This document shows, piece after piece, positions 30,967-56,106 of a stretch of DNA of 64,000 nt. Location: positions 1 to 64,000 of IMG/VR virus record IMGVR_UViG_3300006754_000009, one strand, 5' to 3'. How positions within the stretch are numbered: the first letter of the stretch is position 1; each line of letters begins with the position of its first letter. Under the pieces are notes generated by a model, which was given only the letters and a program-made list of their open reading frames with translations, did no database searches and was not told where the DNA came from. The translations under genes and the position numbers were made by a program. The DNA is from a virus.

Positions 30967-31105
30967 AGATTGGATTGAAGAACTATTTCTTAAAGAATTT
31001 ATTTTAAAGAATAATAAAGAGAAAAGTAAATCCGAAAATAGAAAACAAAGTAATCTTAGAAGTATTTATTATAAAAAAGAATGCCCAATCAAAAATACGG
31101 TATAA
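30953..31105 (+). CDS. Possible very small basic protein overlapping both neighbours
   Basis: ATG at 30953 to TAA at 31103-31105 gives 50 residues rich in Lys, Asn and Glu, with one helical segment (DWIEELFLKEFILKNNKEK). It overlaps the zinc-ribbon gene by 14 bp and the gp25 gene by 25 bp and fills an otherwise 114-bp non-coding gap that also contains the gp25 promoter element. The overlap with a promoter makes it doubtful, while the ATG placed just upstream of the zinc-ribbon stop favours it. No family recognised. Confidence 0.35.
   Translation: MKKNKDWIEELFLKEFILKNNKEKSKSENRKQSNLRSIYYKKECPIKNTV
31063..31070 (+). promoter_or_regulatory. Phage promoter element, variant TATTTATT, before gp25/gp6
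   Basis: TATTTATT, 10 nt before the gp25 ATG at 31081. It marks the return from replication genes to baseplate genes. Confidence 0.5.
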
Positions 31106-31543: not shown

Positions 31544-33385
31544 ATGGCAGAAAAAAAGATAGCATATACAGAAAGAGATTTTCTAGGTATTAGAAATGAA
31601 TTATTAAGATTAACTAACACCTACTACCCTGATTTAATTAGAAACGCGAATGACGCATCCATATACTCTGTGTTTTTAGATTTAAACGCAGCAGTAGCAG
31701 ACAACCTAAACTTCCAAATAGACAGAACATTCCAGGAAACAGTATTAGATTTTGCACAAGAAAGAAGTTCTCTTTATAATTTAGCTAAAACTTATGGTTT
31801 AAAAATACCAGGAAACAGACCATCACTAACAATGGTGGATATTTCTATCATAGTTCCAGCATTAGGAGATAAAGAAGATTTTAAGTACTTAGGTAACCTA
31901 AGAAGAGGAGCTCAATTTAGAGGTGGGGGTCAGGTATTTGAAACAGTAAATGATTGTGATTTCTCAACTCAATATAATAACGAAGGTATTGTTAATAGAA
32001 CTAAACAACCAAATAGAGATATTAACGGAATAATACAAAACTACACAATGACCAAAAGAGAAGTGGTAGTTAATGGTGTTACTAAAATCTTTAAGAAAGA
32101 AATTACCGACTCATTAGTTAGTCCTTTTTATGAGTTATTTTTACCTGAAAAAAATGTAGTGGGAGTTACTGGAGTAATCCAAAAACCAGGACTTGGATAC
32201 CAAACATTACCAACAAACGTAGAATTTTTAGACAGAACAACTGATAAGTGGTATGAAGTACAGGCGTTAGCACAAGATGAGGTATTTGTAGAAGACCCAT
32301 CATCACCACCAGATGAAATAGGGATAAAAGTAGGGAAATATATAGAAGTTGACCAAAGATTCACAACACAATATACACCACAAGGATATTTTCATTTAAC
32401 ATTTGGGGGTGGAAATCAGACATCACAAGATTTATTAGACGATTTTGCAAAAAAAGGCACACCATTAAACATGGCTCAATACATGAATAATATTTCATTA
32501 GGAAAAATGGTACAAGGTAATAGTACTATTTTTGTCCAATACAGAATAGGTGGGGGTAAATCCTCTAATCTAGGAGCTGGAGCTATAAGAAATGTCGGAA
32601 CCAATAACTTTGTAGTAGCAGGACCCAACTCTCAAGTAAATCAATCTGTTATCGATAGTTTAGCAGTAACCAACGTTACTGCCGCTATAGGTGGAGCAAA
32701 CCCAATGTCAGTAGAAGAAATTAGAAATTATATATCTTTTAATTTTGCAGCACAAAACAGAGCAGTATCTATTAATGATTACGTAGCTAAATTACGAATG
32801 ATGCCTAGTACATTTGGTGCACCAGCGAAAGTAGGTGTAACAGAAGTAGAAAATAAAGTTAGATTAAATATATTGTCTTATACACCAGAAGGTAAATTAA
32901 CCTCAGAAATAACATCTACACTAAAAAATAATATAGCGACTTATTTGTCTAATTATAGAATGATGAACGATTATATAGTCGTAGGTCCAGCTAAAGTAAT
33001 AGATATTTCTTTTATGTTAGATTTAACAATAGAGAGTTCATATAATTCAGGAGCTATAGTTAGTAATGTCATAGAAAAAGTAAGCGATTATTTTAGTATA
33101 AATAAAATAGAAATGGGCCAAGACCTATCATTAGGTGAATTAAGAAGTCAGATAATGAATCAACCAGGAGTTGTAAATATAGTTGATGTAAAAGTTTACA
33201 ATAAGGTAGGGGATACCTATTCCCAGTCAGTTACATCACAACCTTATGTAAGCCAAGGAACCAGAGAGATAGGGTTAATTAATGACACTATATATGCACA
33301 ACCAGACGAAATTTTGCAAGTAAGATATCCTGAAAAAGATATAGCTATAAGAATACGCAAACCTCACAAACCAAACTTCACCTAA
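31544..33385 (+). CDS. 6: Baseplate wedge protein gp6-like (baseplate J)
   Basis: 613 residues; T4 gp6 is 660. YTERDFLGIRNELLRLTNTYYPDLIRNANDASIYSVFLDLNAAVADNLNFQIDR is the classic N-terminal helical start of gp6/J proteins, and the central part (MSVEEIRNYISFNFAAQNRAVSINDYVAKLRMMPSTFG) carries the conserved core with its acidic/aromatic loop. The C-terminal DYFSINKIEMGQDLSLGELRSQIMNQPGVVNIVDV is the J-type end. It forms the inner iris of the baseplate that opens on contraction. It lies next to gp25 and upstream of the large distal baseplate genes. Confidence 0.93.
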   Translation: MAEKKIAYTERDFLGIRNELLRLTNTYYPDLIRNANDASIYSVFLDLNAAVADNLNFQIDRTFQETVLDFAQERSSLYNLAKTYGLKIPGNRPSLTMVDISIIVPALGDKEDFKYLGNLRRGAQFRGGGQVFETVNDCDFSTQYNNEGIVNRTKQPNRDINGIIQNYTMTKREVVVNGVTKIFKKEITDSLVSPFYELFLPEKNVVGVTGVIQKPGLGYQTLPTNVEFLDRTTDKWYEVQALAQDEVFVEDPSSPPDEIGIKVGKYIEVDQRFTTQYTPQGYFHLTFGGGNQTSQDLLDDFAKKGTPLNMAQYMNNISLGKMVQGNSTIFVQYRIGGGKSSNLGAGAIRNVGTNNFVVAGPNSQVNQSVIDSLAVTNVTAAIGGANPMSVEEIRNYISFNFAAQNRAVSINDYVAKLRMMPSTFGAPAKVGVTEVENKVRLNILSYTPEGKLTSEITSTLKNNIATYLSNYRMMNDYIVVGPAKVIDISFMLDLTIESSYNSGAIVSNVIEKVSDYFSINKIEMGQDLSLGELRSQIMNQPGVVNIVDVKVYNKVGDTYSQSVTSQPYVSQGTREIGLINDTIYAQPDEILQVRYPEKDIAIRIRKPHKPNFT

Positions 33386-36400: not shown

Positions 36401-37081
36401 TTTGGGTATGAATCCAATATGAGTAGTACGATTTGTGACTGTACTGACCCAACACAAAATACATCATTGCCTATACCAGGTCTAGAATATCCACCCCCAG
36501 CAGTTCCTGATACACCATACGTTGAAAACGCATTAAATATAGCACCTGGACAACTTAATAGTGGAGGTCCTTTGCAGTGGACACCATTATTATTTACGGC
36601 ATCAACACCAACTATTATGAGTGGACAAGAGTTAATAAATTGTGTTACTCTTGATTTGTCCGCAACCACTCAACAAGTTCCTTTTTATCCATGGAGAGTT
36701 AGAGGTGGTGGAGGGTTTGGTGGTTTATATAATGATTGGCAAAATACGACTGGAGATTACCAAATTAAAATGTCAGTGCCTTTAGGGCCAATGTCAATTT
36801 GGCCAGCAATTGGAGTAACTCTCCCTACATGTTATTACGGTCCTTCTTGTCCAGGAAACCCTTCAATTGCCTCTGGGGAGTTTCAACATTATATGGGCCA
36901 TGCGGGAGGTAGTGGGTACCAACTACCAAACAATTATCCGTTAATGACAGACCAATCTGACAACAGTATGTGTTTTTCACAACCATTATTTTATTACTTC
37001 GGATTAAGACCAGGACAAACATCCTATAATACCTTCATTAGGTTATATGTTGATGAAGAATTAGCAGACGCAGTAATATAA
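33488..37081 (+). CDS. Large baseplate-type protein with internal hydrophobic hairpin
   Basis: 1197 residues. The N-terminal domain (about 1-180) contains VCGRVVANNGFGIPNAKVSIFIPLE, and later SGDFMIYGVPTGPQQIVMDVDL, a carboxypeptidase-regulatory-like (Ig-type) beta domain. Around residues 510-570 there is an unusually long hydrophobic stretch (FMNFIYDFLGLIYMVINLI, then a glycine-containing IVLFIIWAVCML segment) compatible with two membrane-spanning helices. Several Cys-rich parts follow (KCSCRPS, CCGTGDYL, TICCHNSYG, GGCYVKIVC). The gene directly follows gp6-like and is expressed with the fibre block, so it is likely the next wedge component (gp7-like position). The hydrophobic hairpin is not a feature of T4 baseplate proteins and suggests insertion into a membrane on infection. 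I infer this; no family was recognised for the whole protein. Confidence 0.75.
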   Translation: MAKSFRVRTEVGRDKNVTFELNQDFDLLEILSLSLTQQEIYTRMCSDFGVVCGRVVANNGFGIPNAKVSIFIPLETEDEKNEVVRFLYPYKEPYEKNEDGKRYNLLSTEPNFDCHVAVGTFPTLKSVLTQQEVKYVYEKYYKFTAKSNESGDFMIYGVPTGPQQIVMDVDLSDIGCFSMLPEDFKQKGAPPSQFDGPRFKDDPELDSLPQIINQTKVVDIRPFWGDEETCRAAITRIDFDLGNSGFKLEPTSVFMGSTAQDTDKDSVNKQCRPKKHMGELCSLITTPGIIDCIRYTPFLKDDDTAFPTYNGVTYSGPPLGGKVPVLQRLYLDNGGRVIDETGSFLVHIPMNLDHVTTDEFGKMILSNDPSKGVPTRARCRFRVRPEQSRGTARQRRSAAYLVPNLREYTTQNNDDGDWPGIDPRSYCFSTEYSDYHGYAQRHLMPGAEDEFYDMTFNRVYTCAQFHDHVKHAGRRQFIGIKEILPEMDQQCSTSAMFFPVNSAVRNAKFMIFFMNFIYDFLGLIYMVINLIISLLAAILGLVLGIVLFIIWAVCMLWCAIYGIVIQFSLGWPFNTTWVLFRMSWFLSSPPNICGQINLTGFGCGIQCEYFGLTIGFVLFQLRQTKYPDCEKCSCRPSASDEFIALADIAPCPDAVPEEPEPGQNSPCPVGNATFNNSMGIEMKWSHDCCGTGDYLTSPETVQDTDTICCHNSYGYNSELYSPSHESDGFAAGGCYVKIVCFNIACIGYNLDMTVLYEWMKREKVASALCNGILNYFWENSWVSGFLYQFQFRAKLQLTVNGYTDWRGETHDTYITDSDFCRKVVYLHPVDNTFYYRSTPFQVQSAAKDGQFIGDTDGVMSLWFAGGNQSDDLHASGDMDRHIYFPTTMTDMGSRNQCIQQICLDPNFAEECSVTDQIGSTTFQDITDLVSDTYNLKLYAFNYTLSSIFARPEKEIGGDVAQALMQNCMLGVFGYESNMSSTICDCTDPTQNTSLPIPGLEYPPPAVPDTPYVENALNIAPGQLNSGGPLQWTPLLFTASTPTIMSGQELINCVTLDLSATTQQVPFYPWRVRGGGGFGGLYNDWQNTTGDYQIKMSVPLGPMSIWPAIGVTLPTCYYGPSCPGNPSIASGEFQHYMGHAGGSGYQLPNNYPLMTDQSDNSMCFSQPLFYYFGLRPGQTSYNTFIRLYVDEELADAVI

Positions 37082-39751: not shown

Positions 39752-42700
39752 ATGGAAAGATTAAATTTTAGAGTAAAAAGAACAAACCCAGATATGTATT
39801 CTTCACTACCTTGTAGTGGTGGAACCAACTACTGGCCTATAAATTATAGTATAGACTGTTCTGGAATGAGTATGTATAACGCGACAGCTTCACAATTAAT
39901 GAATGCATTAAATGGTGATATAACTACTTTCCCTGAGGACTTACGACAATGCTCCTTAACTAACCCTTGTGTAATACTATGGGATTTAAATTATTCGGTT
40001 AGTACTGGTCATTGTACTAATATTGGAAATTACGCTTATAAAGCGTTTTATGGGTTTAATGTTCATGATAGTGCACCTACACAAGTAGTTACTGGTGAAA
40101 CCTATGATTATGTAATAACACTTTTCGAGTCATTATACGTAGATTTTAGTAAACCAATTAATACCACTTCTGACTATACCCTATCTTATATTATAGGGCC
40201 ATGTCACTGTGACCCTGGATTAGAAGAAAATCTAAATAACCTAACTTTATTGTTATCCCAAGACTTTAATGATATTGGACATTATAGTATATGGGACGGT
40301 AATATATTTCAGAAAGAAACATTTTCTAATTTTGTATTTACAGCGAGTACATTTGTTGTGGTACCTGGAGATACAATCCAAATATGGAACACTACTGATT
40401 TTAGTTACTATAAAGAGGTACAAGAATTGCCATATACTATTGATTGGGGTGATGGGAATAGTACAACACTTAATTTTTCTGTTGGTGGGGCTATAACAGC
40501 AGAAAACACCTATCCACCAGGCCCACCTATGGAGTATAGAATTACTATAACACAAGATAGCCCATGGGGACCAACTAGTGTGTCCCAAGTTATTACAGCA
40601 CCAAATTATAGTTATCCACAATTAGTTGCTACGAACCAGATACCCGCAAACAGTGCGTTAACTATAAATCCGTCTGGTGTAACGGTGGGTACAGGATATA
40701 CTTCAGGTCCATCTGGTGTTTTTGGTCAAAGTAATTATATCCCATGGGATACAGGAACACACATAGATGAATATAGTGGAATGACTCAATTCCCAAACTG
40801 TTTTGAAGTAACAGGTGTTACTACTAGTATGTTAGGGATATTCCAAACTTATACCACCTTAAATTCCCCAAATTTACCCCCCGGATATGTAATAGGTACT
40901 ATAGTACCAATTGGAGGTGATATTATAAATCCTATAACAAATAATATAGAAACCGGTATGTATGGGCAGATTAATTGGGCAGACCCAATTTATACAGGTT
41001 ACACCATTTCCTCAGCGAATAATGCTACCCCTATTCATTTTTATGATTTCCCTAATGGTATTACACTTTATGTAGCAGAAAGTTGTGGATTAGATGCTCT
41101 TGCTTTTGGTGCGTATGACTGTTTTAAATGTACCGTTGAGGATTGTGAGTATTGTGAAACTAAAGATGAGTATATAGATAGAATTACAGGGATTTGGACC
41201 CCCATCACATTTAATACACAACGAGGAGTATGGTCACCATATACCGATTATATGGTAGGAGATATAGTTTTTGATACTACATATAATACATGTTGTTGTT
41301 TTATGGCTGTAGCCGACATATTTCAAACAGGACTAACTCAGTCATTATGGTCAGGCACACCACCATCCGAAACTTTACAAGGTGTGTGGTACCAAAATAG
41401 TCTCCCTATAGCACATATTTGGGAAGCGTGTTCTCCTGAATGTGTAAATTGTCCTCCAGGAACCACTCTACCATGTGACGATACAACCTTCCCACATGTT
41501 AACTCACCTGTTGCACCATCCCCTAATGTTGGTAAAGCAGGTCTATTTCAAAATGGTTATTCTTACAGTGTTGGTGATTTCGTATTTGGTCAAGAAGGTA
41601 ATTGTTACCAAGCATTATCTGCTACTAGTGGTAATTACCCACCGACCGCATTTACCTCCACAACATATTGGGAATATGTGGGATGTTCTACTTGGATTTG
41701 TCCACAAGATTTAAATAACATACCAGTATTAAGTTGTGAATTAGTTCCTGGTACTGGAATAACAACCTCCACAAATGTAATTCAAGGACACCAATATTAT
41801 GGTGGTTGTTTAGATGATTTTGATGATGGAGAGTGTTATGCGGATAGATGGTTATGTCCAGGACAATATGGGTGTACTGGATGTACACAAATTGACTCTA
41901 CCCATTCTCTATATACTAGTTATGACCCAATGAACCCATTAGCGGGACCAGTATTTGCTAACTCCATAGATTGTGAAGGATGGTGTAACCCACCTGCATA
42001 TTCATGTACAACCCAACAATCCGCTAACCCTAATGCTTGTTGTACATTATTTTCATGTGCAGAAGATGATGCTAATATGACTCCAGGAGTATACACTTCT
42101 CTTGTTACAACCGTAGTAGCTTTAGTTCCACCCGTCCTACCTAATGGTTTAAATATGAATGAATGGTTAGCTATAAATGAAAGCTTTTATTTTACCGGAC
42201 CCCCAACAAATTTCAACTTACCAAATGTTTGTAATAGTGGAACAAATGGGGTAACACCTACTTCCTACGCATGGTCTACGTCAGCTTGTTGTAATTATGA
42301 GGGTTTTGATTATGAATGTTGTACTGGGTGTGTACCAGTTACTTTTGGTGGAGCTTATAACGATTTAGCGGCGTGTCAAACCGACCCAAATAATAATGGA
42401 GGGGCAACCCAACCATGTGGTTGGACGTGTGAAACCATAAACCAACCCTGTATACCATGTTATGATTGTTTCTGTGGTTACGCGGGATATGGATTTACAC
42501 AAGCTGGTTATTCAGCGTGTACAGCAGATTGTCAAGTAATAGAGTCAGCTTGGATATGTGATTGTACCAATAGTATGACCCCATGTACCTATGTAACTCC
42601 CGCTCCAGGACCGGTAGATAATGTAGTTATATTTAGCGGAAATGTTGCTGGTAGTATTTTATGTAATCAACTATGTCCATGTGATGCCGGTTGGGACTGT

Positions 42701-45700
42701 TTTATAGATGTCACCACCGGTCAGCCCACATATTGCCAAGATGGGGTTAGTGGCTATTATATGGCACAAAATGACCTAGGATTCTCAAATCCTAACCCAA
42801 ACTTTACGGGATATAGTGATTTTACAGCATGTTGTGAAGCAACGGATTGTTGTTTTGCTGATTGTGATATTACCGCTGCACCAGGAACAGAACCAGGTAA
42901 TCAAGTAGCCTTTCCTGGTGGAAACTGGCCTTGTTATTATATTCCTCAATTTCAACCACCTCAACCAGGACTGAACTGTGACCCCACTGGTCCACCTAAC
43001 TGGGGACTTCCATATTGTAATATGTTAGAGTGTACAAGTGCGTTAGCCTTAAACCCATTACCTCCTCCCGCACCAGCATATATATGTGATGTGCCTACAG
43101 TAGACGATTGTTACTGTGCATGTGATGATTATATGACCAATATTGGACAAGGAGGTACTGTACTTACATCACAAGGGCAATATGTAATTATGGGTAATTA
43201 TACATTACATGATATTGTATATCATTGGGACGCAGATTCACCATTATGTTGTTATGTGTGTATGTGTCCGTCATTAATGGGAAGCGCGGACTGTATAACT
43301 ACTTTTGATTGTAGTTGTTTTATTCCAGATGATGGTCCATCAACTGGTGGAGTCCCAAATTGCTGGGAACCATGTGGTGCAACTCCAGGGACAGCACCAA
43401 CAGGTTGTGACCCCTGTGGAATCGTACAAAGCAATACTTGGGAATGTACAACTAGTGGATGTTCAATGTCATCATGTATACACAACCCAGGTCTTACTCA
43501 AGAATCACAAAACTGTTATACTGGGAATACATGTGAAGGACACTGTAGAGCAAGTTGTTATTGTGAAAATGCAACAACTGATACAACCAATTGTGTAGTT
43601 TTACAAGATTGGATGAACAATACTAATACAGGTATATTTTTTGGTGGTTACCCAACGTGGCCCCCAGTACCACCAGGAGCTACCCACCCAGTTTATCCAA
43701 TGGCATCTTTAGATAATTGTCTTGCTATGTTATCTGTAATGGATTGTTGTCCAGGAGGGTCAGCGGATACGTGGTATTGTGATTGGACCTCTAATTGTGA
43801 GACCGTAGCTGGTAATGCAGGACTAGGATGTGTGATAATTCCCGCGGGAACCCCTGGTTATCCAGGACCATTTACCAGTCTTGATGATTGTGAAGATTGG
43901 TGTACTTGGGAATGTGGTTGCCCACCAAATGGATTAGGAACATGTGTATTTAACGCGTTATCGACCGCTGCAGTCACAGCAGGTTCAGCTTATGATTGTT
44001 GGTTGATGAATGGAGGTGATTGTGATTGTTGTGCCCCACCAGACGAATGGTGGTGTGACACCTATGGAGCTGCAAATGGGGATTATACAACAGCAGTACC
44101 TGCATCTGCCTGTAGACCCGGTAGTTATTATGGTGGAGCGAGTGTCCTACACCAACAAGGAGCAATCGGTCAATTAGCAGGAGGACCGTCCGACCCAGCT
44201 AATACTTATTTTGACGCACAAGTAACTAATAATTTTACAGGTATTGGATTTCCAGACCAATTAAGTTGTGAACAACAATGTAGATTCTGTTGTGATTGTC
44301 CTTCCCCACCAGGCACCGCTCATTGTAATGATGTAGACTGGGGAATTGCCACATGTACTTGTACACAGATACCAAGTGAATTAACACCGTTTTTCTGTGA
44401 ACAACAAACCACATTAACACCTCTTGGTTTTCCTTGTGTACCTTCAGCTACCACTGAATGGTGGTGTATAGATATTGTAGGATGCCAACCATACCTTTCA
44501 TCATCTCCACCATCATCATTTATTTCAGGACCACATATCGATTTAATAACTTGTCAGTCAGTATGTAGTTGGGCATGTGGAGATTGCATCAATGACTGTT
44601 TCTGCACCTTCCAAGCTTCACAATACTGTGTTCCCAATTATACAACTGAAGCCTTGTGTCAAACCGCAGTAGCCTCAGTAATAGTCTACGCGGGTGCAAA
44701 TAGTTGTTGTGAGTGTTATGAATGTTTTTCCACTGGAAGTATAAGCTATACATATTTTGATGACACACTAAATTCATGGCAAATTGGAAGTGTTACTGTT
44801 AGTCCATTCACTGGACCTGCTCCTATGTGGAATATGGGTACAAATTATTCTATAGGTGATGTGGTAATGTTTATATATGACGGAACACCATGTTGCTATG
44901 TAGCTGTAGATGATGACCCCTCAAATTTCTGGACTATAGACCCATATACTTATTACACTTACTACCAAAATGATTTAAATACAACAAATCCGGTATGGCC
45001 AGGACCAGCAGGACCTGGAACTAACGCAAATAATTCAGGTACTTTAGTATGGATTACATGTAACCCTAATTGTGTGACCGTACCTTCTATAACTTATGAC
45101 TGTATCCCAGGAGTAACAACACCTTCCCCTGGTGATTGCTCCAACATGACCTTGATACCTGGTGGTCTGATTGGTGCATTTTCAGCAATATTTTGGTTAT
45201 GTGACCCCGTAAACGGAGTACCACCAGCAACACCATTCTCAGATTATTATTATGAAAATTTGAGTTGGACTGGACTTGGTAGTCCTTGTTTAGACAGTAA
45301 CGGTCACGCACTAGCGTATCCGATAACTATGACTTTCCCAGTCTGTATTAATGACTCAGTTTTTGAGGCCGCATACATGCCTATGGTTTCCCACTCCAAA
45401 CAAGAGTGGGTTGACCACCTAGTTAATGCTGGGTTAGCAGCAAATGTTGGAATGGACTGGTGGGCATTAAGAGCATTACTTACAGCTGTATGTGGTCAGT
45501 CAAACATGATTGTAAGTAGTGACCACTGTGAATGCCCAACTACCTCATGTACTTGTGTTCCAGTAACAGGACCAGGAGGACAATACCCTGATAGTCCGTC
45601 ATGTAATCAAGCTTTATTAAGTGACCCTTGTTGTGGTTACTGGGAATGTATTCCAGGTGCCATGTGTAGTTGTGTGTTTAACAATACGCTAACAACATAT

Positions 45701-47662
45701 TTAGGACCACCATTCAATTACTTAACTCAAACTGCATGTGAAAGTGACCTTACCACGTGTTGTTCAGGTACTACATCCATGAACTATCTGTGTAGAGATT
45801 TCGATTGTCAATGTGTACAGGACCCTCTTGGGACTTTCCCAAGTTTAATAGATTGTTTAAATGACCAATCAGAATGTTGTTGGACAGGTACTACTACCAC
45901 TTACGATTGTATACAAGGTAATAATCAACAGTGTCACTGTGTTACAGTAACATCACCTGCGGTAGGTCAATACCCGACAATAGGTGACTGTTTAAGTGAC
46001 CAAACAGAATGTTGTTACACAGGAATGTCAGGGACTGTTATGTATGACTGTGACCAAACATTAGGAGCATGTAACTGTGTAGCCGTCATGCCTCCAGGAA
46101 CATGGGGACCTTTCCCGACCATGCATGACTGTCAAACGAGTCATACATGTTGTTATACCGGAAATACTGGTACTACTGGATTTCTGTGTAGACAGAGTAT
46201 AGTAACTCATGGTGGACCTGGCGGTGTAATAACCCACTCTCTTCAATGCATATGTGAACCAACTAATACCAGTCCTGTTTACGCAACTCTGGGAGATTGT
46301 CTGAATGACCCCACGGATTGTTGTTGGACAGGTACTACCGCAGGACTGTGCATAGATTGTCAGGATACCTATATGCTTGAATTCCAACCCTTGGATGGTA
46401 CATATTCTCCATATGGTCAATATATGTCATCAGCAATTGGTACTTTTGATAATACAGCTACAGGACAAGGAAATGCTTCACCAGAAGTGTGGGGTTTAAA
46501 TCTATTATGGGGTAGTAATCAAATTGTCTTAAGTCCAATTGACCAATGTTGTTATATCTTTGTAGGTGATTCGGACCCTACTCACGCTTATTACGCTTTT
46601 GACCCAGCAGTCTGTTATCAGAATTGGTTACTTGGATTAGCGTGTGATGGAAGTAGTTCAGCAAACCCTACACAAGTTTGGACTCACCAACAACCATCAC
46701 AGATTTGGGTACCATGTGACCCTCACTGTTCAGCCCACAACATGCCAACCTACGACTGTAACCAATTTTTCCAGTGTGTATCCCCAATAGGTGGTGGTGG
46801 TTTTTATACCGGACCTACAGCATATAATGATTGTTTATTGGGTTGTAACCCACCAGGATGTGATGATTGTAGTTCAGTATTAAATAGTTTTATGGTCCCA
46901 GGAGCACCAGTTTCATTTTTAGGTACGTGGCAACCAACTGTTGTATATACTGATAATGAATGTGTGGTAGACCCAGACGATTTATGTTGTTATTGTTGTG
47001 TAGTAATAGACGACAGCATATGGAGTCCTGGAGACGCACTGAGTTGTAAAGATTTCCACCAACCATCAGCGTATATAAATGTTGCCATGGCTGGGGGTGG
47101 TGGATGGATGAGCTGTGGATACACCCAAATTGGTGACCCGTGTTATGGTACAGGGGATTGTGATGGGTGTTATACTACTTTAGCAAGTGCATTAGGCACA
47201 ACACCTATAACCTTTACTCCGTGGCCTGGTAATAGTGGTAGTTTTAATTATTTGTTTGGTGGTTGTGTTACAGACCCAGTTGATGGTTGTTGTTATTGTT
47301 GTGTTGATGACAACGCGATAGCACCACCACCGGCAAACGCAAGAATGGCAACGCCAATGTCATCTTCCTTCCCTTGTGCCATTATAAATGGTACTTTCAC
47401 ACCTGGATTTAATGGACATTGGGAGTCCTGTTTAGTAGACCAAAGTGGTAATATGTGTACCCCAGCAATTGTTTATGGTTGTACGGATTGTGGTACTATA
47501 TGGGAAAACGACCCCATACTGAATCCTGGTGGTCTTATGTGTTGGGAAATTACACAGGGTAGTGTACTCAACCCTTTGAATTTTCCTAACCCAACCGTGA
47601 TTGCTGGAGCAACTAACTTCTATGTTGGTGCAAATGCTGATAATGGTGGTTGTACTTATTAA
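39752..47662 (+). CDS. Giant cysteine-rich repeat protein, probable extracellular adhesin/fibre
   Basis: 2636 residues. Residues about 200-290 form a PKD-like domain (VVPGDTIQIWN, then IDWGDGNST). From about residue 470 on the protein is extraordinarily rich in Cys, about one in ten in sampled stretches, with many CC pairs. Two module types recur. First, W/Y-x-C...C...G...Y-x-S/T-x-x-x-C-x-x-x-C units, which become regular 45-55-residue repeats at about 1930-2200 (for example FPSLIDCLNDQSECCWTGTT, YPTIGDCLSDQTECCYTGM). Second, units with W-x-x-x-x-x-Y-x-x-G-D-x-V followed by CCYxCV-like ends (near residues 490, 600, 1146, 1693, 2253, 2389 and 2500), which resemble chitin-binding (CBM5/12-like) modules. 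No transmembrane segment. Likely a long, disulfide-stabilised, glycan-binding fibre. Confidence 0.8.
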   Translation: MERLNFRVKRTNPDMYSSLPCSGGTNYWPINYSIDCSGMSMYNATASQLMNALNGDITTFPEDLRQCSLTNPCVILWDLNYSVSTGHCTNIGNYAYKAFYGFNVHDSAPTQVVTGETYDYVITLFESLYVDFSKPINTTSDYTLSYIIGPCHCDPGLEENLNNLTLLLSQDFNDIGHYSIWDGNIFQKETFSNFVFTASTFVVVPGDTIQIWNTTDFSYYKEVQELPYTIDWGDGNSTTLNFSVGGAITAENTYPPGPPMEYRITITQDSPWGPTSVSQVITAPNYSYPQLVATNQIPANSALTINPSGVTVGTGYTSGPSGVFGQSNYIPWDTGTHIDEYSGMTQFPNCFEVTGVTTSMLGIFQTYTTLNSPNLPPGYVIGTIVPIGGDIINPITNNIETGMYGQINWADPIYTGYTISSANNATPIHFYDFPNGITLYVAESCGLDALAFGAYDCFKCTVEDCEYCETKDEYIDRITGIWTPITFNTQRGVWSPYTDYMVGDIVFDTTYNTCCCFMAVADIFQTGLTQSLWSGTPPSETLQGVWYQNSLPIAHIWEACSPECVNCPPGTTLPCDDTTFPHVNSPVAPSPNVGKAGLFQNGYSYSVGDFVFGQEGNCYQALSATSGNYPPTAFTSTTYWEYVGCSTWICPQDLNNIPVLSCELVPGTGITTSTNVIQGHQYYGGCLDDFDDGECYADRWLCPGQYGCTGCTQIDSTHSLYTSYDPMNPLAGPVFANSIDCEGWCNPPAYSCTTQQSANPNACCTLFSCAEDDANMTPGVYTSLVTTVVALVPPVLPNGLNMNEWLAINESFYFTGPPTNFNLPNVCNSGTNGVTPTSYAWSTSACCNYEGFDYECCTGCVPVTFGGAYNDLAACQTDPNNNGGATQPCGWTCETINQPCIPCYDCFCGYAGYGFTQAGYSACTADCQVIESAWICDCTNSMTPCTYVTPAPGPVDNVVIFSGNVAGSILCNQLCPCDAGWDCFIDVTTGQPTYCQDGVSGYYMAQNDLGFSNPNPNFTGYSDFTACCEATDCCFADCDITAAPGTEPGNQVAFPGGNWPCYYIPQFQPPQPGLNCDPTGPPNWGLPYCNMLECTSALALNPLPPPAPAYICDVPTVDDCYCACDDYMTNIGQGGTVLTSQGQYVIMGNYTLHDIVYHWDADSPLCCYVCMCPSLMGSADCITTFDCSCFIPDDGPSTGGVPNCWEPCGATPGTAPTGCDPCGIVQSNTWECTTSGCSMSSCIHNPGLTQESQNCYTGNTCEGHCRASCYCENATTDTTNCVVLQDWMNNTNTGIFFGGYPTWPPVPPGATHPVYPMASLDNCLAMLSVMDCCPGGSADTWYCDWTSNCETVAGNAGLGCVIIPAGTPGYPGPFTSLDDCEDWCTWECGCPPNGLGTCVFNALSTAAVTAGSAYDCWLMNGGDCDCCAPPDEWWCDTYGAANGDYTTAVPASACRPGSYYGGASVLHQQGAIGQLAGGPSDPANTYFDAQVTNNFTGIGFPDQLSCEQQCRFCCDCPSPPGTAHCNDVDWGIATCTCTQIPSELTPFFCEQQTTLTPLGFPCVPSATTEWWCIDIVGCQPYLSSSPPSSFISGPHIDLITCQSVCSWACGDCINDCFCTFQASQYCVPNYTTEALCQTAVASVIVYAGANSCCECYECFSTGSISYTYFDDTLNSWQIGSVTVSPFTGPAPMWNMGTNYSIGDVVMFIYDGTPCCYVAVDDDPSNFWTIDPYTYYTYYQNDLNTTNPVWPGPAGPGTNANNSGTLVWITCNPNCVTVPSITYDCIPGVTTPSPGDCSNMTLIPGGLIGAFSAIFWLCDPVNGVPPATPFSDYYYENLSWTGLGSPCLDSNGHALAYPITMTFPVCINDSVFEAAYMPMVSHSKQEWVDHLVNAGLAANVGMDWWALRALLTAVCGQSNMIVSSDHCECPTTSCTCVPVTGPGGQYPDSPSCNQALLSDPCCGYWECIPGAMCSCVFNNTLTTYLGPPFNYLTQTACESDLTTCCSGTTSMNYLCRDFDCQCVQDPLGTFPSLIDCLNDQSECCWTGTTTTYDCIQGNNQQCHCVTVTSPAVGQYPTIGDCLSDQTECCYTGMSGTVMYDCDQTLGACNCVAVMPPGTWGPFPTMHDCQTSHTCCYTGNTGTTGFLCRQSIVTHGGPGGVITHSLQCICEPTNTSPVYATLGDCLNDPTDCCWTGTTAGLCIDCQDTYMLEFQPLDGTYSPYGQYMSSAIGTFDNTATGQGNASPEVWGLNLLWGSNQIVLSPIDQCCYIFVGDSDPTHAYYAFDPAVCYQNWLLGLACDGSSSANPTQVWTHQQPSQIWVPCDPHCSAHNMPTYDCNQFFQCVSPIGGGGFYTGPTAYNDCLLGCNPPGCDDCSSVLNSFMVPGAPVSFLGTWQPTVVYTDNECVVDPDDLCCYCCVVIDDSIWSPGDALSCKDFHQPSAYINVAMAGGGGWMSCGYTQIGDPCYGTGDCDGCYTTLASALGTTPITFTPWPGNSGSFNYLFGGCVTDPVDGCCYCCVDDNAIAPPPANARMATPMSSSFPCAIINGTFTPGFNGHWESCLVDQSGNMCTPAIVYGCTDCGTIWENDPILNPGGLMCWEITQGSVLNPLNFPNPTVIAGATNFYVGANADNGGCTY
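45540..46345 (+). repeat. Protein-coding tandem repeats within the giant Cys-rich gene
   Basis: Five to six degenerate units of about 140-165 bp encode repeats ending in a Cys-Cys-x-Thr-Gly pattern, each with a Tyr/Phe-Pro-x-hydrophobic-x-x-Cys core. At the DNA level units differ, so they look old rather than freshly duplicated. Confidence 0.7.
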
Positions 47663-47713
47663 TGCTACACTATGAGTAATAACAATTTAAATAAATATAA
47701 ATTAGTAGTTAGA

Positions 47714-47721
47714 TATTTATA
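47714..47721 (+). promoter_or_regulatory. Phage promoter element TATTTATA
   Basis: Exact TATTTATA, 11 nt before the ATG at 47733, in the 70-bp gap after the giant Cys-rich gene. Confidence 0.55.
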
Positions 47722-47732
47722 ATAAAATAAAG

Positions 47733-47954
47733 ATGAGTTTAGGTATAGTAAAATATAGTGGGTGTATCCCACCTCTAACAAAAGAAGAGGTATTAATGAA
47801 TGTATGTGAAAGACCAGAAACTAGGTCAAATATATTTATTGAGAGAGGGAAAATATCAGTTTTTGAAAGACCCCAAAGACTAGATTTAACACCCAATATG
47901 GGAGAATTAGTTACACATGGTTATGGGTTCTATAAAATAGCAAAAGAATATTAA
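47733..47954 (+). CDS. Small virion-block protein of unknown function
   Basis: Not recognised. 73 residues with a compact pattern: GIVKYSGCIPPLTKEEVLMNVCERPETRSNIFIERGKISVFERPQRL, containing two cysteines 17 residues apart, and an aromatic C-terminus (HGYGFYKIAKEY). It opens the transcription unit that continues into three large structural genes, after which only a 3-bp gap separates it from the next gene. Possibly a small fibre-joint or chaperone protein. It is well placed to be expressed early in that block and is clearly coding by its fit between neighbours. Confidence 0.75.
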   Translation: MSLGIVKYSGCIPPLTKEEVLMNVCERPETRSNIFIERGKISVFERPQRLDLTPNMGELVTHGYGFYKIAKEY

Positions 47955-48879: not shown

Positions 48880-51800
48880 ATGCCTAGTAATAGATTTAGA
48901 TATCCTCCATCCCCACCCAATGGTTTGGGAACGTTCAGTGATAACTTAGTAGGCAATCAGATTACTGATGGGTCATCACAAATGACTTTAGGTAATTTTT
49001 CTACCCCACAAAATTATTCTAGACAAAGTAGTAGTGTTTACAATCTAGATAGTTTTTCCGCTCCTATAACTTTAGAATCTTTAAATATAACGGACCTTGA
49101 ATTAGCTCAATCATTAAGTAGTAATCAACTACAAGTATATATTAATAATGATACTACTGAGTTAACTAATTTTGTATTATACGGCTCCTTAAACAAAAGA
49201 TTAAAAGTAGCTACTCAGAATATAATAAATTTTTTTCCAGGAGCACTTTTTATAGATGGAATAGACCCAAACTACAACACAGGAAATACTACCGCTTATA
49301 ATATTGTTTATGATAGTGGTAGAAATCAGACCACTTTTAAGGTTAATGTAAACTATATATCGAACCCATTTAGTATAGAGTTTACAACTAATGGTGACAT
49401 TATAACCACCAATTTAAATAAAGAACAAATAATAAATAATTTAGAGTCATTTGGTTATAGTAGTGATACTATAGTAAATGTAGCTGATGGTACCGTATCC
49501 CAGTTAAGAAATTTTACTAAAGAATATAATAACTATTGTTTAACTTTTAGTGGGAGTATTACTGACAAAGAATATAAAGTTTTAAAATTTAAACCACAAA
49601 CTACAACCATTAATTATATAGAATTAACGGTCAAAGGAGCTCCATTCGGAACCGGTAGCACTACCACAACACAGTACTACTTAAAACCCAACAAACAGGA
49701 ATCAGAAAAAGTATTTAAAAAATTTGATAATATAGAATCATTTTTAGTAAATAGAGACTGTACTCCTATCTATACAGCACACTTTAAACTAATAAAAGAG
49801 ACAGACCAAGGAGTAACATATTTTAATAACGAATATATTACATGGATACGTCAAGATGCAGTAAATATAGATATTACCACTAGTAATTACACTAACTATT
49901 TAACTAAATTAGCTTCTATAGGGGACGAACTAGACCAACAAAAAACCAATCTAATTTCTCGATTTTTAACAGCTCCAATACTAAAAGAATTCGATACTAC
50001 GGACCAAAAAGTAGAAAAAACATTACAAATTTACGGAAGAAGCTTTGATGATGTAAAAACATTTGTAGACGGCATAGCTTATATGACTAACGTTACCTAT
50101 GACGGTAAAAACAACATACCCAATAAATTAATTAAGAATTTTGCTCAGACATTAGGGTGGACAACACCAACAACCTTAGATAACACCACATTTTTGGATA
50201 GCGTATTAGGAGTATCCAACCCCACCTACTCAGGAACTAGTGTAGGTAAAACACCAGCAGAGTTAGATGTAGAATTATATAGAAGAATTTTAATGAATAC
50301 GGCTTACCTATTTAAATCTAAGGGTACCAGAAAATCTATAGAGTTTTTATTGTCCTTAATAGGAGCTCCTCCAGCATTAGTAGAATTTAACGAATATATT
50401 GTACTAGCTGACTCTAAACTTAGATTACAACAACCCCTACAATATAGATATGGGGGGCCCGAAGAATGGAGTGCCTCCACAGGTACCACTAATTGGAATA
50501 ATATTGGAAACCACACAGGTACGGGATGGGTGTCACCAAATTACTATAGACCACCCAATAGATTTGAAAATAGATGGTCTCAAATATCCGGAGGGACATA
50601 CGACACCACCACCATAAAATTTAGTCATATATTATTTAATTTAGGTGTACAACCAGCATTTTATTTGTCTACTGGTACTACATCACACCCATTTATTAGG
50701 TACACACCCCAAAATACACAAGGAGACTACCCAGTAGATAAAGACGGATACCCAACCAAACCAAGAGTAACTAATAATTATTTTTTCCAGAGAGGTGCTG
50801 GGTGGTTCGAAAGAAATGAAGAACATAAATCTGAACTAATAATAGATGAAAAAACTTCTGTTCTCTCCGGATGTACCCCCCAGATAAATAATATATTTGG
50901 GCCGTTCACATGGGGTGGTTTCTGGACTATGGGACAATACTCTAATGACTTAAAATGTCCTTATCTAGATAGATTTAGAAGATTTCCTCATATGCCTTTT
51001 GGTTTTGGATTAACCAGAATAATTGATGATAAAAAATCATGGCCTTATTTAGAACCAGGAAGACATCTAAGGGATTTTACTTTTAAAAATAGAGACGCGT
51101 ACTACCATACATATAATGAAAAATTAGTTCTAAACGTAAAAAATATAGAGTTAAATTTAAATATAGGACAAGGATTGAGTTATGATATATGGAGACAATC
51201 TGCTGAAAGTAATTGTTTCTTTAGTGGAGGTTCATTACCCTCACCTTACCCTAATTCAGGAGGAACTTGGGACTCCACAAACCCGCAATGGAACGCAAAA
51301 ATACATGACTTTAAAACCTTCCATAGATATTTCTGGAGAAATTTTATAGATGTAAAAAATAGAATGACCATAAGTGACGGAAAAACAGGAGGATACCCAA
51401 CACTACAACAGATGTATCTAGATTATTTAAGAAATACATGTGGGGATAGTAATAAATACACATATACTAAAATGTTAGACTACGCTCAGTCAATGGGCGA
51501 TTATTGGGTACGTATAATAGAACAAATGATGCCCGCTACAACTTTATGGACTAGTGGTGTAAAAATACAAAATTCAGTATTCCATAGAGATAAGTTTGTG
51601 TACAGGTGTTATAATATGACAGGAACTACCATAGTTAGTGCATTAACAGGCACATTTACTGTTAATCCAACAGGATATACTTCATATCCAGCCCCACAAT
51701 TTCAGATGAGAATGCAAAATGTTTCACCACCGATAACCCCAACTACCGGTACAACATACTATCATAATATAATAAACGGGTCCACCCCAACCCCTATTTC

Positions 51801-52167
51801 TACCTATTCGACATCTTACAATATAGATAACCGAGGAGACAGATTTGGCAGTGAGATAGTAAGTGAAGTAACTAATATATTAGCTAATAAATTTCTCACT
51901 AATAAACGAGAATATAGAGAGAAGGCAATATTTACAAAACAAGGTAGTGTAAATAATCTTTTATGTGTGTACGGATTAAAAGAATTTGGTGATGATGATA
52001 TAAATTGGATAAAAAATTATGATTTAAATATTGAGGGTGACAACCCAATAACACCTACCGGTGGAGTTACAACACCAACAGTCCCTAATACACCAACTAG
52101 AGGAAGGGGTACATTAGGTGTGAGAGCAAGAACACCGATAACAAGTAGTAGAGGAATGTCGTATTAA
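48880..52167 (+). CDS. Large tail/baseplate protein with KSKGTR motif
   Basis: 1095 residues. The most distinctive part (about residues 385-500) has a helical segment KNIPNKLIKNFAQTLGW-like followed by RRILMNTAYLFKSKGTRKSIEFLLSLIGAPPALVEFNEYIV. A set of RRIL-x-N...L-x-KSKGT-x-x-S-I-x-x-L-L-x-x-x-G is common in tail proteins linking baseplate wedges to fibres (P2 gpI-like or gp7-type position). Regions on either side are beta-rich with Asn/Thr repeats; there is a Thr/Pro-rich C-terminal tail after about residue 1050. Few cysteines. Likely the baseplate-to-fibre attachment component of this block, inferred from motif and position. Confidence 0.75.
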   Translation: MPSNRFRYPPSPPNGLGTFSDNLVGNQITDGSSQMTLGNFSTPQNYSRQSSSVYNLDSFSAPITLESLNITDLELAQSLSSNQLQVYINNDTTELTNFVLYGSLNKRLKVATQNIINFFPGALFIDGIDPNYNTGNTTAYNIVYDSGRNQTTFKVNVNYISNPFSIEFTTNGDIITTNLNKEQIINNLESFGYSSDTIVNVADGTVSQLRNFTKEYNNYCLTFSGSITDKEYKVLKFKPQTTTINYIELTVKGAPFGTGSTTTTQYYLKPNKQESEKVFKKFDNIESFLVNRDCTPIYTAHFKLIKETDQGVTYFNNEYITWIRQDAVNIDITTSNYTNYLTKLASIGDELDQQKTNLISRFLTAPILKEFDTTDQKVEKTLQIYGRSFDDVKTFVDGIAYMTNVTYDGKNNIPNKLIKNFAQTLGWTTPTTLDNTTFLDSVLGVSNPTYSGTSVGKTPAELDVELYRRILMNTAYLFKSKGTRKSIEFLLSLIGAPPALVEFNEYIVLADSKLRLQQPLQYRYGGPEEWSASTGTTNWNNIGNHTGTGWVSPNYYRPPNRFENRWSQISGGTYDTTTIKFSHILFNLGVQPAFYLSTGTTSHPFIRYTPQNTQGDYPVDKDGYPTKPRVTNNYFFQRGAGWFERNEEHKSELIIDEKTSVLSGCTPQINNIFGPFTWGGFWTMGQYSNDLKCPYLDRFRRFPHMPFGFGLTRIIDDKKSWPYLEPGRHLRDFTFKNRDAYYHTYNEKLVLNVKNIELNLNIGQGLSYDIWRQSAESNCFFSGGSLPSPYPNSGGTWDSTNPQWNAKIHDFKTFHRYFWRNFIDVKNRMTISDGKTGGYPTLQQMYLDYLRNTCGDSNKYTYTKMLDYAQSMGDYWVRIIEQMMPATTLWTSGVKIQNSVFHRDKFVYRCYNMTGTTIVSALTGTFTVNPTGYTSYPAPQFQMRMQNVSPPITPTTGTTYYHNIINGSTPTPISTYSTSYNIDNRGDRFGSEIVSEVTNILANKFLTNKREYREKAIFTKQGSVNNLLCVYGLKEFGDDDINWIKNYDLNIEGDNPITPTGGVTTPTVPNTPTRGRGTLGVRARTPITSSRGMSY

Positions 52168-52176
52168 TTAAGTATT

Positions 52177-55100
52177 ATGCCATATAAAATATATAAGAGT
52201 AGAATAGATTTAAGAGTTTTATCAGATAAGATAAAATTTGTATTTTATGTTTCAGGTGATGAAAATATACCACATAAGCGCAACAAGTCTTATAATAAGA
52301 CTAAAGCATTTACTTTCATTTATGATACAAATAGAGCGGTAGAGGTAGTAACTTATAGTGATAATACAGCTGAAAGAGTTTTTCTTAAATTTCCAGCAAG
52401 CAATATAGACATAAAAAATAATAGTGATATGGTTAGTTTTACCACAACCAACCTAGTACTAGAGGTTTTTAGAAATAAACAAGGTGTATTTGGGTTTGAG
52501 GAAGTTAAAGGTGGTGGTTGGGGTGCTTTTCTATCCCACCAAAACTATTTCGACGTAAGTACTGGTTATGGTACTAAAACAGGAAGTGGAGCCCTAAGAA
52601 ATCTAGGAAGAGGTAACGGGGGCAAATCCCACACAATACAAATGCTAATACCAGGTATCAGAGTGAATAAAAAAATAATGAATAATATATCTTTTGACTT
52701 AGATATTCTTATAGAATCACAAAATCAATATATAAATACATTAGGGTTTAAATTAACAAAAGATAATACTATTACTATTGAAAATGGTTTATTGGATATA
52801 AAATCTCCTCGACAAGTAATAAACCAAACAAAGGAATTAGAATTAGATACCACCTACCTGTCATTATCACCAAAAGACTTAGCGTCAAGAAAAGTTTTAC
52901 ATGATTATAAGAAACAACTTATTAAATATAATGCAGATGTAGAAGGGTTACATTTAATTTCTAGTAAGGTTTACGCGGTAGAAAATAATATAGTTCCCGA
53001 TGTTAACTTAGATAATGTAAATTTAACACCTTTGAATACAATACAGATACCCTATAATGTTTCCAGGGTAGTGTTTGACAATAATATTTCCGCAACTAGA
53101 AAATATTTTAAAGAAGGAAAAGAAATATATCAGTTAGATTGGGCACAAGAACTATTTAACAATAACTTAGTAACTAAAGCAAATAAATGTTACTCCCTCA
53201 AGTTCTCAACGGAAGAACAATTAGTAGCCTTTGCAGAAAAATTAAAAAATCAGCAGATAGGTAATATAGAAACCTATCCAGTAGTAAACCCAAATGGAAC
53301 TGTTACAAATGTTATAAGACCATATAGTGATATATCACAATGGGTAGAAAGAACCGTACTAGACCAATTTAATGACATATCTTTTAGTTATAAGAGTAAC
53401 GGACTTATTAGAAGTATATTAGTTTGTCCTAGAAAAAAGACACTGATTAATGATATAGAAGGTAAACAAAACAACCTATATACTAGTGGTGGTGAATTTA
53501 CATATAGAGACGGAAAAAATTATATTGGTTCATATCATATACACCCTGAACATGGAATAATGGAAGGAGCGTATCATACAGAGGAATCTCACCAGAAGTT
53601 AATTAGATTATTTAACTACGCACCAATAAGTGGTGATAGTAAAACCGATTTTTTATTTACTACTTATTCTAATACCACTAAAAGTTTATATTCCGGATTT
53701 ACCACTACAACTACCGACAAATTCAAGAGTAATGACACCTACGATTTATTTCTAACAGGTTCAACTTATTCAGGAAGCACCATAATACCCATAACTAATA
53801 TAGAAACCAACCAAAAGTTACCATTAATAGATGATATAACCAAGGAATACAGACCATATATTTTTAATAAAGGGTATAGTCAGAACGGTGGAAATATTGT
53901 GTTAAATGAATCAAACCCAGATAACTACTTGACATATAGTGTTTCGGGTAACGGTATTTATAGGTTCACCTATAAAGCATATCTAGACATTAAATATACA
54001 GATACTAAATGGTGTAACTATCTTTCCCGTGCTTACCCTTCCTCGACTACAGGAACCTACCCAAGCACTAATTATGATATAAAAAGACTAATAAATACCT
54101 CCATAATTCAAGCGGGGGAAGGTGAGAGTGAGACTGCCATACTGGATACAAACTATAAATTCCACCCGGGGTATAAATTTAAGTCCGCGGAGGAAAAAAG
54201 AGTAGACAACATACCCGATAATAGTGGGATATTAAATTTTAATTTTACTGTGAGGTTGAATAAATTTAATTCAGGAAGTACAGCTTCTACTGTTATTAAA
54301 GAATTTAAAGTTTTAAGAAGTAAACTATATGGGACGGCAAACGACTACTTAACGTTACCCGTAACTCAATTAGACAAAGCATCTAGTGGGAGTAATGTGT
54401 GTGTTTTAAGTGGGGTTTCATCATCGACGATATTCCACAAACAAATCCCCATCACTATAGATACTGGGTTTATAAATTTAGTTAGTGGACAATCTCTAAC
54501 CTTAACTTATGACACTAATTGGAGTGCGGACTCTAAAAGCAATTATTTTAGTGAATCTGGAACAACCAATTTAAAAGTTAATTTAGGACACCAATTAGAC
54601 GTAAGTGGTAACACTAAAAATGCACCATGGTTTAGGGGGGTTAAAGTAGGAAATGAATTCATATATAAAAAATTATTTTTTGACGCGACACAGAAATCCA
54701 AAGCATTTACAATGGTTTCTTCAGGAGAAGAGAGAAAAGTAAAAACTGATGGTACCCTATACCTAACCGATAAAGAATGTGGAAACATAACCAGACCAGT
54801 AGTAAATAAAGAAACATTTAATAGATTAAGATTTTTAGACACCACCGGACCAAAGGATATGTTAATATGGGACCAAAGTGTTACCACACCCACTAATAAT
54901 TGGCAAAAATTAATAGAAAATAATACCATCAAAGATTATATATTACCTAAATGTGAGGATACTTTCTGCCATCTTAGTGAAATGCATGAAGATGGAGTAT
55001 TCTGCTTCAACCTACCAACGTATAATGATGAATATGGTGGGAAATGTGATTTTACTTTCCCACAAATTAAACAATCCTATGTTATTCAAAACGTGTTTAA

Positions 55101-56106
55101 AAATATGTTTGGAAACCAGTTAACTCACTATATAGTTGTAACACCAGAATGTAATTTCTATAAACCATGTTCACCATCTAAAGTGAATACAGCATATGAT
55201 ATTTTACATAAAAATATCCCACAGAATTGGAAATTAGTTAATGTAAACAAAAAATTAAAAATTAATGGTAAAGAAATTAAAATTATTTCTAGTTATTCAC
55301 ACTATAATCCCGGACCAACAACTATGGCGGGTGATTTTAGATGTCAATATTATTGTAAATGTGGACAAACTATGGCAGAAGAACTCGGAATAGACCCAAT
55401 CTATGGTGTGAGTGATGTTTATACTAATTTAGAGTTATTAAATTGTGATGAATGTTATCAAGAAGCAAAAAAACATTGTGATAAGTTATATAATACATGT
55501 AAACCAATTCTAGTAGGGAGTTGTGATGACGCTGATTTTGTACTAGAACCAACAGGAAATATAGTTAAAAAATCTCCAGCCCTCATATCTACAACATCAT
55601 TAACAACACTAGATGCTGGTGGGGGAACCGCCCCACCCAAACCATCAGGACCATGGAATCCACCAGGAGGGCCTCGAGGACCTAGAGAGCCTATAAAAAC
55701 CAATGAAGAACGACCAGATAATACTAGGTACATTTGTGATGATGGGGTGTGTATTCCATATGTAGCAGAAACAGGTGGGATTAAGGGTATGGGGGATACA
55801 TCAAGAACTAGCACCCAAACACTAACTACTACTAGTAGTATAATATACGCGAGTTTAACTACTTGTATGGCAGATTGTGTTGTCACAAGTAGTGGTAAAC
55901 CTACAACGCCTTCTGAAGAAGAAGAACAAACACAAGATAACAGTGATTATGGTGGGGGTAGTCATGATGAGGAAGTAGATGACGGTAGTAAAGAGTCCGA
56001 TAAAGATACTGATAAAGAAGGTGTATGTCCCCATAGCTATTATTGGTGTGAGGCTATGGGTGATTGTATAAGCAATGATGTACCTTGTGAAGAGATGTTA
56101 AAATAA
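52177..56106 (+). CDS. Large virion protein with C-terminal Cys/Pro-rich tail
   Basis: 1309 residues, starting 9 nt after the preceding stop. The first 1100 residues are beta-rich and Asn/Thr-rich without a recognised domain. From about residue 1100 the protein becomes Cys-rich (RCQYYCKCGQTMAEELG, then NCDECYQEAKKHCDKLYNTCKPI). After a Pro/Gly-rich linker (PPKPSGPWNPPGGPRGPRE) come two more Cys units: YICDDGVCIPYV...YASLTTCMADC, the same Y-x-C...C...Y-x-S-L-x-x-C-x-x-x-C module as in the giant Cys-rich protein, and a terminal CPHSYYWCEAMGDCI unit. A stretch of E/D/S/G low complexity separates them. A fibre or tip protein carrying small receptor-binding modules is the best reading. Confidence 0.75.
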   Translation: MPYKIYKSRIDLRVLSDKIKFVFYVSGDENIPHKRNKSYNKTKAFTFIYDTNRAVEVVTYSDNTAERVFLKFPASNIDIKNNSDMVSFTTTNLVLEVFRNKQGVFGFEEVKGGGWGAFLSHQNYFDVSTGYGTKTGSGALRNLGRGNGGKSHTIQMLIPGIRVNKKIMNNISFDLDILIESQNQYINTLGFKLTKDNTITIENGLLDIKSPRQVINQTKELELDTTYLSLSPKDLASRKVLHDYKKQLIKYNADVEGLHLISSKVYAVENNIVPDVNLDNVNLTPLNTIQIPYNVSRVVFDNNISATRKYFKEGKEIYQLDWAQELFNNNLVTKANKCYSLKFSTEEQLVAFAEKLKNQQIGNIETYPVVNPNGTVTNVIRPYSDISQWVERTVLDQFNDISFSYKSNGLIRSILVCPRKKTLINDIEGKQNNLYTSGGEFTYRDGKNYIGSYHIHPEHGIMEGAYHTEESHQKLIRLFNYAPISGDSKTDFLFTTYSNTTKSLYSGFTTTTTDKFKSNDTYDLFLTGSTYSGSTIIPITNIETNQKLPLIDDITKEYRPYIFNKGYSQNGGNIVLNESNPDNYLTYSVSGNGIYRFTYKAYLDIKYTDTKWCNYLSRAYPSSTTGTYPSTNYDIKRLINTSIIQAGEGESETAILDTNYKFHPGYKFKSAEEKRVDNIPDNSGILNFNFTVRLNKFNSGSTASTVIKEFKVLRSKLYGTANDYLTLPVTQLDKASSGSNVCVLSGVSSSTIFHKQIPITIDTGFINLVSGQSLTLTYDTNWSADSKSNYFSESGTTNLKVNLGHQLDVSGNTKNAPWFRGVKVGNEFIYKKLFFDATQKSKAFTMVSSGEERKVKTDGTLYLTDKECGNITRPVVNKETFNRLRFLDTTGPKDMLIWDQSVTTPTNNWQKLIENNTIKDYILPKCEDTFCHLSEMHEDGVFCFNLPTYNDEYGGKCDFTFPQIKQSYVIQNVFKNMFGNQLTHYIVVTPECNFYKPCSPSKVNTAYDILHKNIPQNWKLVNVNKKLKINGKEIKIISSYSHYNPGPTTMAGDFRCQYYCKCGQTMAEELGIDPIYGVSDVYTNLELLNCDECYQEAKKHCDKLYNTCKPILVGSCDDADFVLEPTGNIVKKSPALISTTSLTTLDAGGGTAPPKPSGPWNPPGGPRGPREPIKTNEERPDNTRYICDDGVCIPYVAETGGIKGMGDTSRTSTQTLTTTSSIIYASLTTCMADCVVTSSGKPTTPSEEEEQTQDNSDYGGGSHDEEVDDGSKESDKDTDKEGVCPHSYYWCEAMGDCISNDVPCEEMLK

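Follow-up and report, generated by a model that had tools for sequence, protein, structure and literature searches.

A conserved family of giant cysteine-rich proteins, encoded in the baseplate gene cluster of T4-like phages and undescribed within the databases searched, can be defined from sequence comparisons around one reading frame of the window, which is the whole stretch of DNA analysed (64,000 nucleotides, bases 1-64000 of an IMG/VR virus record of 89,263 bases). The protein is probably a baseplate-attached receptor- or glycan-binding protein that would be armoured by disulfide bonds after lysis and whose specificity would reside in the C-terminal third. We infer from the sequences its presence in the virion, its oxidation after lysis, its binding function and its attachment by the N-terminal region. 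The adhesion role in the tail or baseplate predicted in the initial annotation is supported by the fixed synteny near a gp6-like gene and by the combination of a conserved N-terminal part with a swapped C-terminal third. The features of the protein are the following:

39752..47662, + strand, giant cysteine-rich protein (2636 aa, 215 Cys, 25 Lys+Arg, pI 4.1), with 13 complete homologues
39752..41071, + strand, N-terminal region (aa 1-440), with few Cys, among the best conserved parts, containing the motifs CSGGTNYWPI and QDFNDIGHYSxWDGN
41213..41320, + strand, CCY module 1 (aa 488-523), leave-one-out HMM score of 24.0 versus 3.2 in shuffles
41534..41626, + strand, CCY-like module 2 (aa 595-625), a doubtful member found as a regex site, leave-one-out score of 3.0, not above shuffles
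43166..43267, + strand, CCY module 3 (aa 1139-1172), leave-one-out score of 13.0
44813..44923, + strand, CCY module 4 (aa 1688-1724), leave-one-out score of 21.9
45119..45526, + strand, variable cassette (about aa 1790-1925), unrelated in sequence between the homologues L014 and L015 and the lowest-conserved inner block
45641..46339, + strand, tandem array of five six-Cys units (aa 1964-2196), detected by motif count and HMM
46484..46582, + strand, CCY module 5 (aa 2245-2277), leave-one-out score of 16.1
46922..47011, + strand, CCY module 6 (aa 2391-2420), leave-one-out score of 21.2
47234..47314, + strand, CCY module 7 (aa 2495-2521), leave-one-out score of 24.7

The reading frame is real and was recovered at exactly these coordinates (2636 codons). 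The initial annotation described one residue in ten as a cysteine over most of the length. This holds locally, with 9-15 Cys per 100 residues over most of 700-1650 and 1900-2200, but not for the protein as a whole (8.2%, versus 0-4.6% in the other proteins of the window), the density being low in residues 1-500. The scarcity of Lys and Arg and the pI of 4.1 are unlike those of the neighbouring gene products. A tryptic digest of the 2636 aa should yield only three peptides of 7-30 residues, so such proteins would escape tryptic proteomics of virions. The N-terminal region (aa 1-440) is the probable part of attachment to the baseplate; an AF2 model of residues 1-720 was uninformative (mean pLDDT of 41).

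Repeating units rich in CC pairs had also been proposed. The repeats themselves were confirmed by motif counts and HMMs, whereas the 24 CC pairs do not exceed the number found in composition-matched shuffles (19.6 +/- 4.0). The CxC count is likewise near chance for this composition, and CC-pair enrichment was discarded as evidence. Two classes of repeats were detected, both above shuffles: a tandem six-Cys unit of ~42 aa (five copies) and the modules GDxV...CCYxxV (six or seven, from seven sites). The six-Cys unit has the form [WYF]xC...CxC...G.Y.xT..DC...CC[WY]TG, with a motif count of 5 for a shuffle mean of 0.005 and HMM i-E values of 5e-9 to 2e-14. More copies, partly divergent and scattered, are present in L007 and L009. 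In an AF2 model of three units, each unit is predicted with modest confidence (mean pLDDT of 62) to form a beta-hairpin and, after it, a short helix. The CCY-type sites number 7 for a shuffle mean of 0.15, with a pattern drawn up after the sites had been seen, and six of the seven modules recover each other in the leave-one-out HMM.

At least seven chitin-binding-like units had been counted at the outset: seven CCY-type sites do exist, one of them a doubtful member, but none reaches the cut-off of the family CBM_5_12 (PF02839, 26.2 bits), the best module scoring 14.9 bits (E 0.028). The motif W-x(5)-Y-x-x-GD-x-V of CBM5/12 begins several CCY modules (E 0.028-0.29), yet the match is partial, covering the first half of the module with 13-15 of the 44 profile positions. 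Module 1 is CBM5/12-like in its motif only (E 0.28 on the homologue L003), and the unit of L033 homologous to module 4 reaches E 0.028. CC-aromatic cores are not typical of CBM5/12. The PKD-like units reported earlier have no Pfam support: the fragment aa 1-433 matches no family at E<=10, and the stretch DWGDG is not conserved in L007 and L009. Neither the PKD nor the chitin-binding label is established. With the three-unit model, Foldseek against PDB and BFVD gave no significant result; one BFVD match, A0A516LFR9, has E 7e-3 with this low-confidence model. The predicted beta-hairpin plus helix with conserved Cys recalls the Kunitz/BPTI fold, to which most small-domain Foldseek matches belong, but none of these matches is significant (best E 0.66, probability <= 0.18, query pLDDT of 62) and there is no sequence match.

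The window encodes a T4-like contractile tail (sheath, tube, gp6-like Baseplate_J protein, T4 baseplate hub) together with T4-like replication genes (gp32-like SSB, UvsX, exonuclease, DnaB helicase, ribonucleotide reductase). According to the sheath and gp6 proteins, the closest cultured relatives are the Flavobacterium phage immuto and the Microcystis phage Mel-JY01 (25-35% identity). The carriers of the cysteine-rich gene are uncultured T4-like phages, probably marine; no host-linked relative was found in the genome scans. Three neighbouring genes are of particular relevance:

31544..33385, + strand, Baseplate_J / gp6-like wedge protein (Pfam PF04865, E 6.7e-6; PHROG baseplate wedge, E 1e-18)
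48880..52167, + strand, 1095-aa tail-cluster protein, with profile matches to long baseplate-cluster ORFs of Mel-JY01 (E 2.9e-11) and immuto (E 3.8e-4)
52177..56106, + strand, 1309-aa protein, whose homologues contain, close to the C-terminus, a single copy of the unit in a four-Cys version

The gp6-like gene lies upstream of the cysteine-rich gene with three ORFs between them, an order shared by the relatives: gp25-like, gp6-like, ~1200 aa, ~600 aa, ~300 aa, cysteine-rich protein, 73-aa ORF, 305 aa, ~1100 aa and ~1300 aa. This order holds for every contig with visible neighbours, and the 73-aa ORF is seen in nine aligned lineages. The tail modules of immuto and Mel-JY01 contain homologues of the gp6-like, gp25-like, sheath and 1095-aa proteins but no cysteine-rich homologue, and none of their ORFs of at least 300 aa in this region exceeds 2.2% Cys. 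The four-Cys unit in the homologues of the 1309-aa protein, YxCxxGxC...GxYxSLxxCxxxC, is accompanied by a second small Cys motif and matches weakly (i-E 0.05 in L013); this neighbour has no homologue among cultured phages.

Homologues of the 2636-aa protein were detected in 22 IMG/VR contigs, including the duplicates L013/L018, L033/L034 and L039/L040, with identities from 100% down to about 30%. The 13 complete homologues contain 2454-2966 aa and 199-248 Cys, and are all low in Lys and Arg. The protein has no family in Pfam or PHROGs at E<=0.1, profiles of the family and of the array retrieved no PDB chain, a search of 50,697 phage genomes gave no match, and neither the full protein nor the six-Cys array has a homologue in cultured phages. 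Literature searches gave no description of such a protein. The term undescribed, already used in the initial annotation, can therefore be kept for Pfam, PHROGs, PDB and cultured phages. The same three databases (Pfam, PHROGs, PDB) gave no significant similarity to a known receptor-binding protein or carbohydrate-binding module; the protein behaves like a receptor-binding protein with an architecture found in no known family.

This behaviour is best seen in closely related phages. Between L014 and L015, the flanking ORFs are 94.7-100% identical (eight of nine above 98%) and the cysteine-rich protein only 86.8%. The two proteins are nearly identical from residue 1 to about 1700 and unrelated at residues ~1790-1960, and the six-Cys array and the C-terminus diverge too. 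Since the L015 cassette resembles its counterparts in L039 and in the window protein, an exchange between lineages seems to have occurred. In L003 and L004 (97% identical), about 28 of the 70 differences fall in units 3-4 with all Cys kept. Conservation of the window protein is lowest at aa 1801-1920 and in the last block. From these alignments, conserved N-terminal two thirds followed by a swapped or hypervariable C-terminal third appear as the usual pattern of receptor-binding proteins. The receptor-binding and tail-fibre proteins of T4-like phages share the location downstream of baseplate wedge genes, the conserved N-terminus and the exchanged or variable C-terminus; they differ by the absence of any sequence or fold match, by the extreme Cys content found here and by fibre repeats or a chaperone domain, none of which was recognised in the present protein.

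The cysteines are much better conserved than the rest of the chain. Between the window protein and L003/L006, 98-99% of Cys are identical versus 61-62% for the whole protein, and the corresponding values with L007/L009 are 88% and 38%. His identity drops to 33% and 7%, respectively, which places His among the least conserved residues. L007 and L009 have 242 of 243 Cys in common. Where cysteines do change between close relatives, they mostly do so by two. L003 and L005 (82% identical) differ by 2 of 220 Cys, gained together; the window protein differs from L003 and L006 at 583+609, 933+951 and 1172+1204; positions 924+929 are lost together between L033 and L035. Two of these pairs are located as follows:

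42548..42604, + strand, co-varying positions 933/951, Ala+Ala in the window and Cys+Cys in the other compared homologues reaching it
43265..43363, + strand, co-varying Cys pair 1172/1204, both Cys in the window, L007, L009, L013, L033, L035 and L039

The second pair is lost in L003-L006 (M or L / P) and in L014/L015 (T/T), and these different replacements suggest two losses. For 24 of the 57 gapless columns with variable Cys, a column of identical pattern lies at most 45 residues away (9.6 expected; reached in 0 of 1000 shuffles). Proline also clusters (z of 3.1, versus 4.8 for Cys), so part of the signal may reflect shared block ancestry; 14 other residues show no clustering to speak of. The Cys count is even in 10 of the 13 homologues, and the odd total of the window protein fits a lone Cys1817 whose apparent partner, 1718, is an Ala. 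Unpaired exceptions comprise this residue, position 2525 of L009 and several in the C-terminal region.

A signal-like hydrophobic N-terminus is absent from all 13 homologues, and in the simplest reading the bonds would for that reason probably form after lysis. The initial annotation had noted no oxidoreductase in the window. A glutaredoxin-family gene is present elsewhere in the record: an ORF of 116 aa with the motif CDYC (L010:11093-11443, about 74992-75342 of the record) lies outside the window. The glutaredoxin-family match (75019-75105 of the record) was found in six of seven records, i.e. its own and five of six related ones. The usual role of glutaredoxins is to support ribonucleotide reductase, as reductants and not as oxidants, so this gene was not counted as an oxidase. 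No thioredoxin was found, although the control search worked, and a search for Erv1-like oxidases gave no match, control genomes being equally silent. Virion disulfides do occur in phages, as illustrated by the contractile Agrobacterium phage Milano, which has intra- and inter-chain bonds in its virion, receptor-binding proteins included (PMC10811340). As proposed here, its structural proteins, among them those of the baseplate, contain disulfides though they are made in the bacterial cytoplasm (PMC10811340). They differ in averaging 2.1% Cys and in having bonds partly between sheath and baseplate subunits (PMC10811340), whereas a single chain with 8.2% Cys in repeated modules is considered here.

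The initial annotation had left open whether the cysteines form disulfides or bind metal. The cytoplasm is reducing and CxC and CC motifs are numerous, both of which suit metal; nevertheless their counts are near chance, Cys are gained and lost in pairs and not in fours, and their totals are mostly even. Conserved Cys/His ligand sets were not found given the His identities above, a comparison that is silent on Cys-only sites. Since Cys change in pairs and His is unconserved, the evidence favours disulfides, and metal binding (Zn, Fe-S or metallothionein-like sites) appears highly improbable. A disulfide network could alternatively belong to a structural baseplate part that locks the tail until reduced, with no role in receptor binding, as proposed for Milano, where baseplate and sheath disulfides need reduction before contraction (PMC10811340). 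The location in the baseplate cluster and the 3.4% Cys of the neighbouring 1197-aa protein agree with such a lock. We nonetheless consider it unlikely, as Cys pairs change together within one chain, the remaining baseplate proteins are poor in Cys, and a C-terminal third swapped between near-identical phages fits specificity better.

The same C-terminal variation looks host-directed, which speaks against a virion protein that would bind particulate glycans (chitin, mucilage, marine snow) and hold the phage near its hosts instead of recognising a host receptor. The presence of a CBM5/12-like motif in a set of six or seven related modules (CBM_5_12 E 0.028-0.29) and a putative chitinase gene just upstream of the baseplate genes in a Microcystis phage relative point in that direction, but with every module under the Pfam cut-off this role seems rather improbable. 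Finally, the low Lys/Arg and high Cys contents, unlike those of the neighbours, might indicate an intracellular or released factor that is encoded in the tail cluster by chance. A product outside the virion is very unlikely, given a gene order kept across lineages down to 33-38% identity and an N-terminus without signal-like features for secretion.

Under the preferred reading of a baseplate-attached binding protein, the chain would be synthesized in the cytoplasm without a signal peptide and would be assembled into the tail by its conserved N-terminal region. Oxidation after lysis would then yield a chain of small modules containing about 100 intramolecular disulfides, and these bonds, together with an almost complete lack of Lys and Arg, may confer resistance to trypsin-like proteases and to extracellular unfolding. 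Specificity would be determined in the C-terminal third by the variable cassette, the six-Cys array and the terminal CCY modules, where most Cys positions would be retained as a framework, with diversification of the intervening residues or exchange of whole cassettes. More tentatively, we propose a single baseplate adhesin of ~2,500-3,000 residues passing from a reduced cytoplasmic precursor to an all-disulfide chain of modules after lysis, with host specificity evolving by swapping or diversifying Cys-scaffolded units in the manner of animal disulfide-rich domains. If so, hosts would be bound by a disulfide-rich modular protein of a kind usually met in secreted animal proteins, although its synthesis takes place in the cytoplasm of a bacterium. 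It would become testable by what route over 100 Cys pairs are matched correctly after lysis when no phage oxidase has been recognised, and a natural disulfide scaffold tolerating large loop variation would be available.

Other observations concern the vicinity of the gene. The 1197-aa baseplate-cluster protein (33488-37081 of the window, 3.4% Cys) contains a long hydrophobic, membrane-like stretch, MIFFMNFIYDFLGLIYMVINLIISLLAAILGLVLGIVLFIIW, which is odd for a tail protein. The gap of ~290 nt located 3' of the cysteine-rich gene was rejected as a regulatory element, as it contains the conserved 73-aa ORF (47733-47954), which lies between the cysteine-rich and 305-aa genes, is under the usual length threshold and is kept in nine lineages. 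The sequence GATATTTAT..TAAAA is invariant ahead of this ORF in the nine lineages. The motif TATTTATWATAAAA, found directly upstream of late genes (1254-1269, 31061-31076 and 47712-47727), is a possible late promoter whose count in the window is weakly above chance. In some lineages, small basic ORFs (15-19% Lys+Arg) directly follow the cysteine-rich gene (L015:17954-18529, L033:10465-11178 and L035:10505-11176) and are possibly homing endonucleases. An ORF of 259 aa in the tail gene block (62094-62873 of the window) contains a dockerin type I / EF-hand pair (Pfam E 8.5e-8). The proteins L010:12398-13978 and L011:1566-2201 (-), otherwise unlike, have in common the motif KQLYDLLVxNGYDxAFLRK near their C-termini. 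The adjacent ORFs L010:15344-15652 and L010:15676-15996 have near-identical starts, MKKIKLTExxLTxIIxKVxKEQ, possibly a targeting peptide common to both. An ORF judged by eye to be M23-peptidase-like, L010:7351-8124 (-), ends with a Cys-rich C-terminal tail, CRCSSSRPECCCE.
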